A stretch of DNA of 10,674 bases from an uncultured Oribacterium sp. (GTDB taxonomy: Bacteria; Bacillota; Clostridia; Lachnospirales; Lachnospiraceae), in NCBI GenBank assembly GCA_938030845.1, contig CALHIC010000436.1:1-10674 (forward strand), given 5' to 3'. Positions 3,759-10,468 of this stretch are shown in pieces. The position numbers and the translations under genes were made by a program. Under the pieces are notes generated by a model. The model saw nothing but the letters and a program-made list of their open reading frames with translations, made no database searches and was not told where the DNA came from. Position 1 is the first letter of the stretch. Every line of letters starts with the position of its first letter.

Positions 3759-4952
3759 TTACTTCTCTTTTGCTTCCCAGATGATGTTCTTCCAACGCTC
3801 AGGGTCTGTATCTCCCTCGGTGTTGAAGCAAAGCACCTTACTGTTCTCGTTAAGCTGTAACTTCTCTCTTAAATCCTTGAAGTCATCCTGTAACATGATG
3901 GCAGCCAATGCACCGAAGCCTGCTGCACCGGACTCTCCGGAGAAGACCTGATCGTCTCCCTTTAACGGAGCGTTCAGCATTCTCATTCCTCTTGCGGCAA
4001 CGATATCCTCTGCAGAAATAAATGCCTTTGCATGGTTCTTCAAGATATCCCAAGAAGTGATGTTCGGCTCTCCGCAAGCAAGACCTGCCATGATGGTAAT
4101 CATGTCGCCGTCTACAATACGGATGTTTCCGTCATTTGCCACAGCGCCCTTGTAAAGGCAATCTGCAACGGAAGCCTCAACCACAACCATGATAGGAGGA
4201 TTCTCCTTGTAACGGTTAGCGAAGTATCCTACAACTGCACCTGCCAAGGAACCTACGCCGGCCTGTACGAATACGTGTGTGGGTCTTTCTCCCAGCTGGT
4301 CAGCCGCCTCATCCGCCATGGTGCCGTAGCCTTCCATAATCCAAGCAGGAATCTTCTCATAGCCTTCCCAAGCGGTATCCTGTACTACGATTCCGTGCTC
4401 TTCCTTCTCGGCAAGAGCTGCAGCCTGTCTTACACACTCGTCATAGTTTACATCGGAAATCCATGCCTTGGCATTCTCAGCCTTGATGTGGTTCAAACGG
4501 GTCTCTGTAGAGCCCTTCGGCATGATGATTACACAGTTCTGTCTTAACTTATTAGCCGCCCAAGCTACTCCTCTTCCGTGGTTTCCGTCGGTAGCGGAGA
4601 AGAAGGTTGCTGTTCCGAACTCTTCCTTTAACTTCTCGGAGGTTAAAACATTGTAGGGAAGCTCGGAAATATCCTTTCCTGTTTCCTCGGCAATGTAACG
4701 AGCGATAGCGTAGGAACCGCCTAATACCTTGAAGGCATTTAAGCCGAAACGATAGGACTCATCCTTCACGTAGATGTTTCCCAGGCCAAGATATTTTGCC
4801 ATATTGGGAAGCTTGCAAAGAGGGGTCTCAGAGTACTGAGGGAAGCTCTCGTGGAAGGTTCTTGCCTTCTTTACTTCTTCCATAGACATAAGAGGAAGAT
4901 TCTTATCCTCTGTCTTTGGCATTTCGTTAATTTTCCATTTTAAATCCTGCAT
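3759..4952 (-). CDS. ygeX: 2,3-diaminopropionate ammonia-lyase (PLP enzyme)
   Basis: Diaminopropionate ammonia-lyase converts 2,3-diaminopropionate to pyruvate and two ammonia molecules. At 397 residues it matches the family length (E. coli YgeX about 398). It is a fold-type II PLP enzyme: the Schiff-base lysine is K75 in [13 protein letters not shown], the ATDGNHGRG segment (residues 121-129) holds the aspartate and asparagine expected at the active site, and GVGSLAG (231-237) is the phosphate-binding loop. A C-terminal [10 protein letters not shown] segment is also family-typical. The ATG at 4952 follows a clear AAAGGAGG. It lies 32 bp after the regulator gene and 80 bp before ygeY, so the three are probably co-transcribed. 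In the inferred pathway this is the step that yields central carbon as pyruvate. Confidence 0.96.
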
Positions 4953-4984
4953 GGCTATTCCTCCTTTTTTTCGCCACTATACTG

Positions 4985-5632
4985 TTACTTTTTGCTCTGG
5001 TCAATATAGCTGTATAAAGTAAATTTGCTGATGCCGTAGAAATTGGAAACCTTGTCCCCTGACTTGGTAATCAGGAAGGCTCCCGCATCCCGTAAGAACT
5101 GGATGGCTTGAATTTTTTCTTCCTTATTCATCAGAGCCGGCGGCTTTCCAATCCGCTTCACACTTTGATTAATCAGGTTGTCCAAAAGGTCATTCACGTT
5201 CAAAGGAATCTGTCCGTCCCCGTTACTGTCATGGCTCTCCACCGTGGTAATGGACTGTAATGCCGCATCCACATTCATCAGTGCGGTTACATCATAGTTG
5301 ATGCCCAGAACCCAGCGATATTTTCCGGTGCTGTCCTTCAGGAAAACTGTAGAGGACTTTAGGATTCTGCCGTCCTGGGTAGTAGTGCGATAGCCCAGAT
5401 GGTCCACAATGATGTCTCCCTTTTCTATCGCTTCCAGAGTTTCCAGTACCACCTTTGAGGCGCCGTCCCCAATTTTTCTGCCGCTCACATGTCCGTTGAT
5501 GATGAAAATGATGGTATGTTCCAAATCCTTTACGGAAAGGTCATGGATACAAACCTCGCAATCCTTTCCGAACTGTCTGGCAATACCGTGGGCCGTACTC
5601 ACCAGCATTTCCAAGCTGCTGTCCTCTGCCAT
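4985..5632 (-). CDS. YheO-type PAS-like/HTH transcriptional regulator
   Basis: This 215-residue protein has the layout of the YheO family. A PAS-like sensor domain covers roughly residues 8-120, with the landmarks EVCIHDL, GHVSGRKIGDG and LKSSTVFLKDSTGKYRWVLGINYD. A linker of about 40 residues follows (120-165), then a C-terminal helix-turn-helix region at about 168-213 (NKEEKIQAIQFLRDAGAFL through VSNFYGISKFTLYSYI). The ATG at 5632 is preceded by AGGAGG. It is the first gene of the leftward unit, divergent from ssnA, with its stop only 32 bp ahead of ygeX. That suggests local control of both arms by a pathway metabolite, but the ligand cannot be read from the sequence. DauR-type regulators of D-amino acid catabolism are relatives. 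No transmembrane or signal segment is seen, so it acts in the cytoplasm. Confidence 0.88.
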   Translation of the reverse strand: MAEDSSLEMLVSTAHGIARQFGKDCEVCIHDLSVKDLEHTIIFIINGHVSGRKIGDGASKVVLETLEAIEKGDIIVDHLGYRTTTQDGRILKSSTVFLKDSTGKYRWVLGINYDVTALMNVDAALQSITTVESHDSNGDGQIPLNVNDLLDNLINQSVKRIGKPPALMNKEEKIQAIQFLRDAGAFLITKSGDKVSNFYGISKFTLYSYIDQSKK

Positions 5633-5938: not shown

Positions 5939-7270
5939 ATGTTTTTAATCGGAAATGGACGTCTTTTCACCAGAGACGAAAAGAACAGCTTTTTCGAGAA
6001 TGGCGCAGTAGTTTGGGAAGACAATACTATTGTAGAAGTCGGGGATTTTGAGACATTAAAGAAAAAATACGCAGATGCGGAATTTATTGACGCAAAGGGT
6101 GGTGTGATTCACCCGGCTTTTATCAATACCCACGAGCACATCTACTCTGCTTTGGCAAGAGGCTTATCCATCAAGGGCTATGCTCCCAACGGATTCTTAG
6201 AGATTCTGGACGGACTTTGGTGGACTATTGACCGGAATCTGGACAACGACTTAACCAAGCTTTCCGCAGAAGCTACCTATTTAGAGTGTATCAAGAACGG
6301 AGTAACCACCATCTTCGATCACCATGCTTCCTTCGGAGAGATTCCCGGTTCCCTTTTCGCCATCGAAGAGGCTGCCAGAGACTTCGGCGTACGTTCTGTT
6401 CTTTGCTATGAGATTTCCGATCGTGACGGTAAAGAAAAGGCACATGCCGCTATCAAGGAAAATGTTGACTTTGCAAAGCACGCTCTTTCCCTGAAGGATG
6501 ACTTCATCAAGGGTATGATGGGTATGCATGCAAGCTTTACCATCTCCGATGAAACCATGGAGCTTTGCCGTAAGGAGAAGCCGAAGGAGATCGGATACCA
6601 CATCCACGTAGCGGAGGATATCCTGGACCTTCACCGTTGCTTAAAGGAGCACGGCAAGAGAATCGTAGACAGACTCTATGACTGGGACGTATTAGGGGAG
6701 AAGACCTTACTGGCACACTGCATTTATGTAAATCCTCACGAGATGGATTTGATTCGCGATACCAATACCATGGTAGTACACAACCCGGAATCCAACATGG
6801 GTAATGCCTGCGGATGTCCTCCCACCATGGAGATTGTACATAAAGGAATTCTTACAGGATTAGGTACAGACGGATACACCCATGATATGATAGAATCCTG
6901 GAAGGTGGCTAATATTCTCCATAAGCATCATTTGGTAGACCCGGGTGCCGCTTGGGCAGAGGTTCCGGAAATGCTTTTCCAGGGCAATGCTCGTATCGCT
7001 AACCGTTATTTTGAAAAGAAGCTGGGCGTATTAGAGAAGGGTGCAGCTGCGGATATCATCATCACCGACTATATCCCGCCAACACCGATGAACGCCGGCA
7101 ACTTAAACGGCCACATGCTCTTCGGTATGAACGGTCGTTCCGTAGTTACTACCGTAGGAAATGGTAAGATTCTGATGAAGAACAGAGAGCTTCAGGGAAT
7201 CGACGAAGAGAGATGCCTTGCCAAGATTCGCGAGGGTGCAGCTCGTTTAGAGAAGAAAATTAACGGTTAA
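5939..7270 (+). CDS. ssnA: SsnA amidohydrolase-superfamily aminohydrolase
   Basis: A 443-residue metal-dependent hydrolase of the amidohydrolase/cytosine deaminase-like superfamily, matching SsnA in length (about 442 in E. coli). Metal ligands are visible: H65 and H67 in NTHEHIYSA, H221/H223 in YHIHVAED, H260 in LLAHCIYV and D311 in GLGTDGYTHDM. The family hydrolyses C-N bonds in rings or amidines, and E. coli ssnA sits next to ygfK. AAGGAGG at 5924-5930 with an 8-base spacer fixes the ATG at 5939. It is the first gene of the rightward unit and is separated from ygfK by a 204-bp structured leader. In context its likely job is deaminating or opening a purine-derived ring before or after YgfK acts (inference); guanine deaminase-like or dihydropyrimidinase-like activity are both possible. 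Cytoplasmic, no signal peptide. Confidence 0.93.
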   Translation: MFLIGNGRLFTRDEKNSFFENGAVVWEDNTIVEVGDFETLKKKYADAEFIDAKGGVIHPAFINTHEHIYSALARGLSIKGYAPNGFLEILDGLWWTIDRNLDNDLTKLSAEATYLECIKNGVTTIFDHHASFGEIPGSLFAIEEAARDFGVRSVLCYEISDRDGKEKAHAAIKENVDFAKHALSLKDDFIKGMMGMHASFTISDETMELCRKEKPKEIGYHIHVAEDILDLHRCLKEHGKRIVDRLYDWDVLGEKTLLAHCIYVNPHEMDLIRDTNTMVVHNPESNMGNACGCPPTMEIVHKGILTGLGTDGYTHDMIESWKVANILHKHHLVDPGAAWAEVPEMLFQGNARIANRYFEKKLGVLEKGAAADIIITDYIPPTPMNAGNLNGHMLFGMNGRSVVTTVGNGKILMKNRELQGIDEERCLAKIREGAARLEKKING

Positions 7271-7278
7271 AACGGAAT

Positions 7279-7306
7279 TTCACAAAAAGCAAAGTATTTC
7301 TATAGA
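7279..7306 (+). promoter_or_regulatory. Candidate internal promoter for ygfK
   Basis: TTCACA (7279-7284), a 16-bp spacer and TATAGA (7301-7306) lie just after the ssnA stop. The -10 sits inside a perfect 10-bp palindrome TTCTATAGAA (7298-7307), which could also be an operator. Transcription would start close to the GGG at 7313, exactly at the base of the first leader hairpin. Recognised by eye only; ygfK may instead be read through from ssnA. Confidence 0.35.
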
Positions 7307-7307
7307 A

Positions 7308-7474
7308 GAAAAGGGTAGCTGAGAACCCTTTTCGTTCTGGAAACTTTGTTCGCAACATTAATGGGCCATTCTTGGTCAGGCAAGAATACCCCATCAGGGA
7401 AAAGCCCTCCTGTAAATCAGGAGAAGACGCAGGATCTTAAGCAGGAGGGCTGTTTACCCGAAAAGGAGATTTCC
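7308..7474 (+). ncRNA. Structured leader RNA of ygfK, candidate riboswitch/attenuator
   Basis: Several nested structures occupy the gap before ygfK. Hairpin 1 pairs GAAAAGGGT (7308-7316) with ACCCTTTTC (7325-7333). A small stem with a TTCG loop lies at 7346-7355. Hairpin 2 pairs ATGGG (7361-7365) with CCCAT (7390-7394) and, across a 2x2 internal loop, ATTCTTG (7368-7374) with CAAGAAT (7381-7387) around GTCAGG. Hairpin 3 pairs GCCCTCCTG (7404-7412) with CAGGAGGGC (7442-7450), competing with CTCCTG/CAGGAG (7407-7412 with 7418-7423). CTCCT at 7407-7411 can also pair with the ygfK Shine-Dalgarno AGGAG (7464-7468). GGGTA (7313-7317) could close with TACCC (7455-7459). I do not match it to TPP, SAM, glycine, purine or Moco consensus elements. 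A candidate RNA motif named after ssnA has, as I recall, been reported; I cannot say whether this is one. Confidence 0.5.
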
Positions 7475-10468
7475 ATGAGTGATATTATGACCCCGATTCC
7501 CTTTGACAGATTGATGAACCGTATTTTGGTAGAGCATCAACAGGGAGCTGTTTTTGGTATGCAGAAATGCTACCAGGCAAAAAACCTTCAGCCAAACACT
7601 CTTTTTGGCAGAAAATTAGAAGGACAGATTGGACCTGCTGCAGGACCTAACACCCAGCTTGCCCAGAACATCGTTGCTTCTTACTACGGCGGCGCTCGTT
7701 TCTTCGAGTTAAAGACCGTACAGAAGATGGACGGTAGAGAGCTGGCAGCTTGTGTAGCAAAGCCCTGTATCACAGCAGAGGACGAGTGTTACAACTGTGA
7801 GTGGTCCACAGAGTTGGAAGTACCACAGGCTTTTGCAGAGTATGTAAAGGGCTGGTTCGCTTGTAAGGTTATGGCGAAGGAGTATGATTTAGGCGATCCG
7901 GATGCTTTCCAGTTCAACATTTCCGTAGGATATGATCTGGAAGGAATCAAGCTTCCCAAGGTAGACCGTTTCATCAACGAGATGAAGGACGCTAAGGATA
8001 CCGAAATCTTTAAGGAGTGTAAGGCATGGCTTTTGGCTAACCTTGACCGTTTCCGGAAGGTGACCAAGGAAGATGTAGAGGCTATTCAGTCCGAAATCAT
8101 CAACAGCGTTACCGTTTCCACCCTTCACGGCTGTCCTCCTTCCGAGATTGAGGCGATTGCTTCTTACCTGATTCAGGAAAAGCATTTGCACACCTTCGTA
8201 AAGTGTAACCCTACTCTCTTAGGATATGAAACCGCTCGTGCAATCTTAGACGAGATGGGCTACGACTACATCGCTTTCACAGACTTCCACTTCAAGGATG
8301 ACTTACAGTACAGCGATGCAGTACCTATGTTAAAGCGTTTGCAGGAATTGGCAAAGAGCTTGAACTTAGCCTTCGGTGTAAAGATTACCAACACCTTCCC
8401 TGTAGATGTGAAGAATAACGAGCTTCCTTCTCAGGAAATGTATATGTCCGGTAAGTCCCTCTTCGCTCTTTCCATGTCTGTAGCGAAGATGCTGACCAGA
8501 GACTTTAACGGAAGCCTTCGTATCTCCTTCTCCGGCGGTGCGGATTACTTCAACATTGAGCGTATCGTGGAAGCCGGCATTTGGCCTGTAACCATGGCAA
8601 CCACCCTCTTAAAGACCGGTGGATACCTTCGTTTCATCCAGATGGCTGAGCTTTTAGAGAAGAACCTTGCAAAGCCTTGGGAAAAGGTTGAGCTTTCCTT
8701 AGTGGAGAAGATGATTGCAGACGCTAAGAGCGATAAGCACTTAGTAAAGCCCGTTAAGCCCCTTCCCAACAGAAAGTCCGATAAGAAGGTTCCTTTGGTT
8801 GATTGCTACACCATGCCCTGTCGTGACCGTTGCCCAATCCACCAGGATATCACCAGCTACGGCCGCCTGGTAAATGAAGGCAAGTTCCAGGAAGCTTTAG
8901 AGGTTATCTTAGATAAGAACCCGCTTCCCTTCATGACCGGAAATATCTGTACTCATACCTGTCAGTCTGCTTGTACCAGAAATCACTATGAGACAGACGT
9001 ACAGATTCGTACCAACAAGTTAATCGCTGCAAGAGGCGGATATGATGCCGTTCTTCCCGGATTAAAGCAGGAAGGTTCTGTGCAGAAGAAGGTTGGTGTT
9101 ATCGGAGCAGGCCCTGCAGGTATCTCTGCCGCTTTCTTCTTGGCAAGAGCAGGCGTAGAAGTACATGTTTACGATAAGGACGCTGTAGCCGGCGGTGTAG
9201 TAGCCAACGTTATCCCCGGATTCCGTATCCCTGCTGAAGAAATTCAGAAGGACGTAAACCTGGCTAAGCAGTACGGCGCTCAGTTCCACCTTGGACAGGA
9301 AGTGAACGATATTGACGCTTTCCGTAAGGAAAATAACTTTGACGCTGTAGTCGTTGCTATCGGTGCCCACAAGGAAGCTCCCCTTGTACTGGAAAAGGGA
9401 GAGGCTTACAACGCTCTACATTTCCTGGCAGACTTCAAGGCACAGGACGGCAAGTTAAACTTAGGAAAGAACGTTGTTGTAGTAGGTGCAGGAAACACCG
9501 CTATGGACGTTGCAAGAGCTGCGAAGAGAAATGCAGGAGTAGAAAATGTTTATCTGGTTTACAGAAGAACAAAGCGCTACATGCCTGCGGATCAGGAAGA
9601 ATTGGAAGAGGCTATTGAAGAGGGCGTAAACTTCCAGGAGCTCCTTGCTCCATTTACCCATGAGAACGGCAAGTTACTTTGCCATCGCATGGTACTCTCC
9701 GATGTGGATGCTTCCGGAAGACGTTCCGTTAAGGAAAGCGACGAGGTGGTTGAGATTCCCTGCGATACCGTAATCGCTTCCATCGGTGAGAAGGTAGACG
9801 GTTCTTACTATGAGAAGAACGGCATTGCCGTTACCGAGAAGGGACTGCCTGTATTAAAGAAGGAAAGCAACGAGACTTCCGTAGCCGGCGTTTACGCTGC
9901 AGGAGACGGTGCTTTCGGCGCTTCCGTAATTGTAAAGGCTATTGCCGATGCTAAGCTTGCTTGCGAAGCAATCTTAAACAAGACCATCGGTACCGACCGT
10001 CCTTCTCAGACAACAGATGAGAAGATTTACGGAAAGAAGGGTAATCTTGTAGAGCCGGAGAAGGGATTAAATCCTGACAAGCGTTGTCTTGCCTGCGACC
10101 ACATCTGTGAGAACTGCTGCGACGTATGTCCTAACCGTGCAAACTTCGCCATTAAGGTTCCCGGCGTAGAGATGCACCAGATTATCCACGTGGATTACAT
10201 GTGTAACGAGTGTGGTAACTGTGAGACCTTCTGCCCATACGATTCCGCTCCTTACAAGGAGAAGTTCACCCTCTTCCACAGAGCCGAGGAAATGGAAGAC
10301 TCCACAAACGACGGATTTGCATTCGTTGACAATGATGGAAATGCCATTGTACGCGTAGGCGGCGAGAAGATGAACTACAAGGTAGGCGATAAGAACTCTA
10401 AGCTCTTCTATCGTCTGGCTGAACTGGTAGATACCGTTTACAACGATTATTCTTACCTCTTAATCTAA
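7475..10468 (+). CDS. ygfK: YgfK multidomain FMN/FAD/Fe-S oxidoreductase
   Basis: This 997-residue protein is a YgfK-type oxidoreductase (often labelled putative selenate reductase subunit; E. coli YgfK about 1032). Residues ~1-430 form a dihydroorotate dehydrogenase-like TIM barrel with the segments KCNPTLLGYE, FGVKITNTF and SFSGGADYFNIERIVEAGIW. Next comes a GltD-like module: Fe-S cysteines at 449, 453, 492, 496 and 500, an FAD loop GAGPAG (544-549), an NAD(P) loop GAGNTA (671-676) and a C-terminal YAAGDGAFGAS. A bacterial ferredoxin-like tail holds cysteines 871, 874, 878, 881, 882, 885 and CNECGNCETFCP (910-921). These are the same modules as dihydropyrimidine dehydrogenase in a different order, so I infer reduction of a purine-derived ring. 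I chose the ATG at 7475 because AAAAGGAGA precedes it; an in-frame ATG at 7346 would translate the structured leader. Confidence 0.93.
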   Translation: MSDIMTPIPFDRLMNRILVEHQQGAVFGMQKCYQAKNLQPNTLFGRKLEGQIGPAAGPNTQLAQNIVASYYGGARFFELKTVQKMDGRELAACVAKPCITAEDECYNCEWSTELEVPQAFAEYVKGWFACKVMAKEYDLGDPDAFQFNISVGYDLEGIKLPKVDRFINEMKDAKDTEIFKECKAWLLANLDRFRKVTKEDVEAIQSEIINSVTVSTLHGCPPSEIEAIASYLIQEKHLHTFVKCNPTLLGYETARAILDEMGYDYIAFTDFHFKDDLQYSDAVPMLKRLQELAKSLNLAFGVKITNTFPVDVKNNELPSQEMYMSGKSLFALSMSVAKMLTRDFNGSLRISFSGGADYFNIERIVEAGIWPVTMATTLLKTGGYLRFIQMAELLEKNLAKPWEKVELSLVEKMIADAKSDKHLVKPVKPLPNRKSDKKVPLVDCYTMPCRDRCPIHQDITSYGRLVNEGKFQEALEVILDKNPLPFMTGNICTHTCQSACTRNHYETDVQIRTNKLIAARGGYDAVLPGLKQEGSVQKKVGVIGAGPAGISAAFFLARAGVEVHVYDKDAVAGGVVANVIPGFRIPAEEIQKDVNLAKQYGAQFHLGQEVNDIDAFRKENNFDAVVVAIGAHKEAPLVLEKGEAYNALHFLADFKAQDGKLNLGKNVVVVGAGNTAMDVARAAKRNAGVENVYLVYRRTKRYMPADQEELEEAIEEGVNFQELLAPFTHENGKLLCHRMVLSDVDASGRRSVKESDEVVEIPCDTVIASIGEKVDGSYYEKNGIAVTEKGLPVLKKESNETSVAGVYAAGDGAFGASVIVKAIADAKLACEAILNKTIGTDRPSQTTDEKIYGKKGNLVEPEKGLNPDKRCLACDHICENCCDVCPNRANFAIKVPGVEMHQIIHVDYMCNECGNCETFCPYDSAPYKEKFTLFHRAEEMEDSTNDGFAFVDNDGNAIVRVGGEKMNYKVGDKNSKLFYRLAELVDTVYNDYSYLLI

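Follow-up and report, generated by a model that had tools for sequence, protein, structure and literature searches.

Orphan structured leader RNAs of bacteria are conserved multi-hairpin RNAs located just ahead of a single metabolic gene. The anaerobic breakdown of urate by gut bacteria is relevant to gout. For the reductive urate pathway, the enzymatic steps were reported in 2025 (PMC12507026), and the available text of that report assigns the conversion of yanthine into ureidomethyl-hydantoin to YgfK together with SsnA. The window analyzed here, the whole 10,674-nucleotide stretch of DNA from an uncultured Oribacterium sp., carries both genes on the plus strand: ssnA, for the amidohydrolase acting with YgfK (5939-7270; NCBIfam NF005540, 658 bits against a cutoff of 444), and ygfK (7475-10468; TIGR03315, 1305 bits against a cutoff of 835), separated by a gap of 204 nt. 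The minus strand contains carbamate kinase, ygeW, ygeY and ygeX genes and a gene without an NCBIfam match (4985-5632). The window's YgfK shares 99% identity with its counterpart in Oribacterium sinus (locus L016; Lachnospiraceae, Bacillota) and 97% with that in O. parvum (L001), and by sequence the window is close to O. sinus.

The ssnA-ygfK gap contains a real, lineage-restricted orphan structured leader RNA, present in some bacteria of the mouth. In the consensus fold of the window, O. sinus and O. parvum sequences, 52 pairs are predicted across three plus-strand hairpins, P1, P2 and P3. P1 (7288-7350) has 25 pairs and the apical loop AGCUGAGA (7317-7324), and in this three-sequence consensus 100% of its cells are paired, with two one-sided changes that keep pairing and no two-sided change. 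P2 (7361-7394) comprises 7+5 bp around a CC/AC internal loop and is capped by the hexaloop GUCAGG (7375-7380); two of its 12 pairs are altered on both sides in O. parvum. P3 (7397-7459) consists of an outer stem (7397-7401 with 7455-7459), in which A7400/A7456 is unpaired in the window and paired in O. sinus and O. parvum, an inner stem (7404-7412 with 7442-7450) with one two-sided change that keeps pairing, and a tip that varies in sequence and length. The end of P3 directly precedes the ribosome site of ygfK, the Shine-Dalgarno sequence AAAAGGAG (7461-7468). The first-pass annotation, made from the window alone, had proposed an unassigned structured leader RNA at 7308-7474, and its 5+7-bp hairpin with a 2x2 internal loop and its 9-bp long-range stem correspond to P2 and the inner stem of P3. 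Its start at 7308 has to be moved, as the first hairpin reaches 20 nt further upstream to 7288, and the transcription start suggested at 7308 found no support in a scan for the sigma-70 consensus only, which gave one promoter-like site in 7000-7700 (0.8 expected), located inside ssnA.

The dense stems noted at 7308-7474 were borne out by folding: the minimum free energy is -59.3 kcal/mol, compared with a mean of -43.6 (sd 3.9) for shuffled sequences (z -4.00), and none of 200 shuffles folded as well. For the whole gap, z is -5.6 in the window, -6.5 in O. sinus and -5.9 in O. parvum (100 shuffles each). The first-pass view that a plain spacer would not normally be so dense in stems is only partly upheld. 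A comparison was made with 89 co-directional gaps of 110-320 nt from 400 kb of the O. parvum genome, with a plain open-frame criterion for calling genes and with the O. parvum leader scored apart from the 89; 14 of these gaps have z of -4 or below, and because six lie below the z of the leader, its structure is strong but not unique. Two of the six adjoin group II introns, two share a long inverted repeat recognized by eye, and two are others. The introns are neighbours in O. parvum, identified by Rfam matches (L123:10264-12086 and 16270-17942), and the inverted repeats, with a common core by eye, lie in two intergenic gaps (L129:5617-5877 and L127:4970-5203). Among other ssnA-ygfK gaps, that of L019 contains a long hairpin resembling these O. 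parvum elements, and that of L020 contains a repeat-like element (4826-5000) with terminal inverted repeats, GTAACTGTTCAGTA...TACTGAACAATTAC.

The pattern of change between the window and O. parvum points to maintenance of the pairing. Alignable sequence is confined to two close species (three rows, the window with O. sinus and O. parvum). For P2 and inner P3, both named beforehand from the window alone, the changes in O. parvum provide a fair test. Across P1 and P2, 99 of 109 columns are identical, and all 37 pairs survive the 10 substitutions; these touch four pairs, all four of which are kept, two through two-sided change. When 10 changes were placed at random, at least two kept two-sided pairs arose in 0.0062 of 200000 trials, and together with the absence of any broken pair in 0.0002 of 200000; absence of a broken pair alone occurred in 0.0036 of 50000. 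Over all 52 pairs, seven of the eight touched are still paired in O. parvum. Sliding the pairing partner by 1-3 columns lowered pairing from 98.7% to 43.5-60.6%, in a structure derived from the same rows, and shuffling of the 3' letters, a weak control with three rows, reached the covariation score and two-sided count in 15 of 500 trials and the number of pair types in 500 of 500. Within these three alignable sequences, a conserved secondary structure with compensatory changes is present, and the check for such changes in relatives that the first-pass annotation had proposed favours structure through the two-sided changes in P2 and P3. Identity in itself says less than this pattern, because ygfK is also well conserved between the species: at the sequence level P1+P2 is only modestly above the ygfK block (third codon positions 81.7% identical between window and O. 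parvum), and 7397-7474 is identical in 53 of 89 columns. Third codon positions of ssnA are 54.3% identical in the same comparison. Because identity to O. parvum is far higher in ygfK than in ssnA, and is likewise high in P1+P2, the sequences hint at gene exchange or a different constraint over 7288-10468, with a break near the end of ssnA.

Searches of databases and genomes indicate a narrow distribution. With Rfam 15 there were no matches at gathering thresholds in the window, and likewise in its relatives, in agreement with the first-pass impression of no known riboswitch class. A permissive Rfam scan of 7200-7560 gave seven weak matches (mir-198, P31, RAGATH-7 and others), far below gathering and at chance level. 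The TPP riboswitch (CUGAGA), ANTAR targets and CsrA sites were also considered for a likeness and set aside, the Rfam scans having given no such match. In the best 80 of 482 confirmed ygfK loci, ssnA is upstream of ygfK in 78, with a gap of at most 100 nt in 43, 101-300 nt in 12 and more than 1400 nt in 23; the gaps in O. sinus, O. parvum and a third Oribacterium, L002, span 203-269 nt. The custom covariance model R1 matches the leaders of two loci among these 80, those of O. sinus and O. parvum. Among 83 sources, its matches are in the window and the same two loci, three further rows being weak antisense matches within the latter. In genome sets drawn from larger groups, overlapping and strictly filtered, R1 was accepted in O. 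sinus and O. parvum, one copy each, among 397 family genomes (E <= 0.1), and in the same two species only among 392 order genomes (E <= 0.01). Two further R1 matches among the family genomes, the L114/L115 pair, were discarded: the first (G359) is a terminator-type inverted repeat on reading the DNA, and the second (G251) was judged to be coding sequence without a gene call. A full-length ygfK match is present in five of 17 genus genomes (O. sinus, O. parvum, that of L002, G011 and G017), and the gaps in G011 (39 nt) and G017 (58 nt) leave no room for such a leader. No leader match in plasmids was obtained by BLAST, one exact core pattern was absent from viral contigs, and the titles and abstracts retrieved from open-licence literature describe no ygfK, ssnA, urate-riboswitch or Oribacterium leader RNA of this kind.

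The third Oribacterium leader, that of Oribacterium sp. oral taxon 078 F0262 (L002; YgfK 73% identical, gap 269 nt), is more diverged. The custom model, while matching O. sinus and O. parvum, missed this gap in a normal search, and BLAST gave no match at E 0.1; with filters off, R1 returned 13 low-scoring pieces, the best with 11.8 bits on the opposite strand and a P2 piece with -1.1 bits. MAFFT with L002 yielded no usable P2 alignment, so P2 was compared by eye and by constrained folding. The L002 stems differ from those of O. sinus and O. parvum, and its gap contains GCUGAG followed 62 nt downstream by GUCAGG, words that occur in the P1 and P2 apical loops of O. sinus and O. parvum at spacings of 56 and 57 nt. 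Among the 12 gaps of 101-300 nt in the best 80 of 482 loci, both words are present in three (O. sinus, O. parvum and L002), and the gaps of L010, L012 and L021 contain GCUGAG without GUCAGG. In L002, GUCAGG lies within the loop of a hairpin of -27.4 kcal/mol whose stem bases are different, and CUGAG can be placed at the edge of a P1-like loop; the unconstrained fold places CUG in a short stem. Among shuffles of the L002 gap, a fraction of 0.0008 (of 20000) contained both words in the same order, 26 of 60000 had them 50-70 nt apart, and five of 60000 combined this spacing with a local folding energy of at most -10 kcal/mol. The pattern GCTGAG-N46..58-GTCAGG occurs six times in genomes G001, G002 and G003 (five times for a reversed control), three of the six being ygfK leaders. 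The descriptor matched 26 times in 100 loci. Five of these matches fold locally at -10 kcal/mol or below, namely in L001 (again as L131), L002, L016 and L071; the L071 match, at exactly -10.0 kcal/mol with a spacing of 73 nt, lies outside the ssnA-ygfK gap and was dismissed. Because the words were chosen after inspection, their recurrence in L002 is suggestive, not proof. As CUGA (7319-7322) and UCAG (7376-7379) are complementary, a 4-bp loop-loop contact between P1 and P2 is plausible.

Folds that include the coding sequence bear on how the leader might act. In the predicted folds of the window, O. sinus and O. parvum, the ribosome site pairs not with P1-P3 but with ygfK codons, in the window ATT CCC TTT, forming a local plus-strand hairpin, P4 (7462-7504); long-range pairing differs between the species. 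The predicted cost of opening the ribosome site in full context is 1.6 kcal/mol in the window, 1.7 in O. sinus and 5.2 in O. parvum, compared with 2.9, 3.3 and 4.0 kcal/mol without the leader, so that opening is made easier by the leader in the window and O. sinus and harder in O. parvum. When the coding sequence is included, the predicted O. parvum fold loses the outer P2 stem to pairing with ygfK, which could be an effect of fold prediction or a hint of a switch. A duplex between the 3' arm of P1 and the Shine-Dalgarno sequence is predicted at -11.3, -9.3 and -7.0 kcal/mol, the last in O. parvum, whose sequence interrupts this pairing, and whole P1 is more stable (-20.7 to -24.5 kcal/mol). 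The ygfK frame is open through the leader at 7346-7474 of the window, and stays open over more than 50 codons ahead of ygfK in O. sinus, O. parvum and L002 as well as in the window, probably by chance. An N-terminal extension of YgfK was rejected. The in-frame ATG at 7361 has no visible ribosome site ahead of it, the alignments of 78 among the best 80 of 482 loci begin at an ATG corresponding to 7475 (this start is not contained in L026 and L056), and by eye the changes track RNA pairing, not codons.

Taken together, 7288-7474 is somewhat more probably than otherwise an Oribacterium-specific, cis-acting intercistronic leader RNA of ygfK, a reading based on comparison and predicted folds. Under this model, the P1 and P2 loops would touch through CUGA/UCAG, and the contact would fold P1-P2 into a compact domain. 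This domain, with P3 beside the ribosome site, may set YgfK output separately from that of SsnA, through an effect on the initiation of translation or on how the ssnA-ygfK message is cleaved or how stable it is. A passive region, in which P1 would be a duplex cut site or weak terminator and P3 would shield the 5' end of ygfK, with neither sensing nor a tertiary fold, is rather unlikely. The 25-bp P1 is long enough for a double-strand RNase; it begins 17 nt after the ssnA stop and has an AGGGU/ACCCU core followed by a T-rich tract, and the free variation of the P3 tip would fit a stem whose strength alone matters. The P1 core, however, has three G-C pairs only and was not reported by the terminator scan, and a passive stem would need neither identical loops nor the loop words shared with L002. 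Still less credit is due to a chance or relic inverted repeat, for example a remnant of a mobile repeat, which is highly improbable: repeat-like hairpins do occur in other ssnA-ygfK gaps (L019 and L020) and repeat-like structured gaps elsewhere in O. parvum, but O. sinus and O. parvum each contain a single match to the leader, the plasmid search by BLAST and the viral search with one core pattern were negative, and the changes are compensatory.

The first-pass annotation had guessed a purine, ureide, flavin or molybdenum-related ligand, and a metabolite riboswitch for a purine or pathway intermediate (urate, xanthine or yanthine) controlling ygfK is unlikely. In its favour, the processing of yanthine by YgfK and SsnA, as described in the available text on the urate pathway (PMC12507026), makes an inducer a natural idea, a xanthine/urate class is on record in NMT1 (PMC7373994, in the text available), and the loop words outlast the stem sequences in L002. 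Against this guess stand the scan of 7000-7700, which flagged no plus-strand terminator, the predicted folds, in which P1-P3 do not mask the ribosome site, and the lack of an Rfam match. The R1 matches to leaders of just two loci among the best 80 of 482, with one site per genome where found and no accepted match before a gene other than ygfK, likewise weigh against it. With neither a terminator nor P1-P3 masking nor a link to a ligand found, the results favour a cis-acting element of control or processing over a purine riboswitch, which is possible but not supported. Should it serve processing alone, the leader would still be a real, if modest, orphan RNA.

Another structured RNA occupies the ssnA-ygfK gap in an Enterocloster group, including L021, [Clostridium] clostridioforme AGR2157, now placed in Enterocloster. 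This leader lies at L021:4856-4990, L010:4858-4990, L012:4875-4998 and L022:4838-4959, and is also found in L117, L142, L144 and L146. Like the Oribacterium leader, it sits between ssnA and ygfK, with one BLAST match in each of four source genomes (none in two others searched) and no Rfam match at gathering in L010, L012, L021 and L022, apart from one weak match in the L021 gap. The model R2, built from these four loci, matches eight of 17 genus genomes (E <= 0.01), in all eight between ssnA and ygfK. It also matches five family genomes, of which L118-L120 were set aside, their roughly 3-kb loci giving no ssnA or ygfK hit. Pairing is 98.8%, with three pairs and seven cells changed on both sides; in an alignment fitted to the model, none of 500 shuffles reached the cell count and 94 of 500 reached the pair count. 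Folding z in the four gaps is modest (-1.6 to -3.3). The two-sided changes all fall within one helix. Unlike the Oribacterium leader, this RNA has a branched fold with near-invariant junction sequences, because of which it looks more aptamer-like than the element of the window, and it is the stronger orphan RNA of the two. Kinship between the leaders was considered and dropped, as both models gave only low-scoring pieces and no full match.

These two leaders raise the idea that ygfK has independently gained at least two unrelated purine sensors, a kissing-loop RNA in Oribacterium and a junction RNA in Enterocloster, which would set YgfK separately from SsnA in response to a purine, oxidised or reduced, from the anaerobic pathway of urate. 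This joint claim is a long shot. Because two unrelated conserved RNAs occur at the same gene, the sensing hypothesis is directly testable, and regulation of ygfK by an RNA, if true, would add a new level of control.

Among described RNAs, NMT1 offers one likeness, a hairpin with an internal loop before a purine-breakdown gene, P2 being likewise a two-part hairpin; Rfam scans with 4227 models, NMT1 not being confirmed among them, gave no NMT1 match. In the text available, NMT1 is reported only from Proteobacteria (alpha-, beta- and gamma-), with conserved junction bases and common sequestration of the ribosome site (PMC7373994), whereas the Oribacterium leader is from Bacillota and no sequestration by P1-P3 is predicted. 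The Oribacterium leader is like the orphan leader RNAs of bacteria in build and in position, and differs from them in being known from two alignable species and one diverged candidate, and before one gene only.
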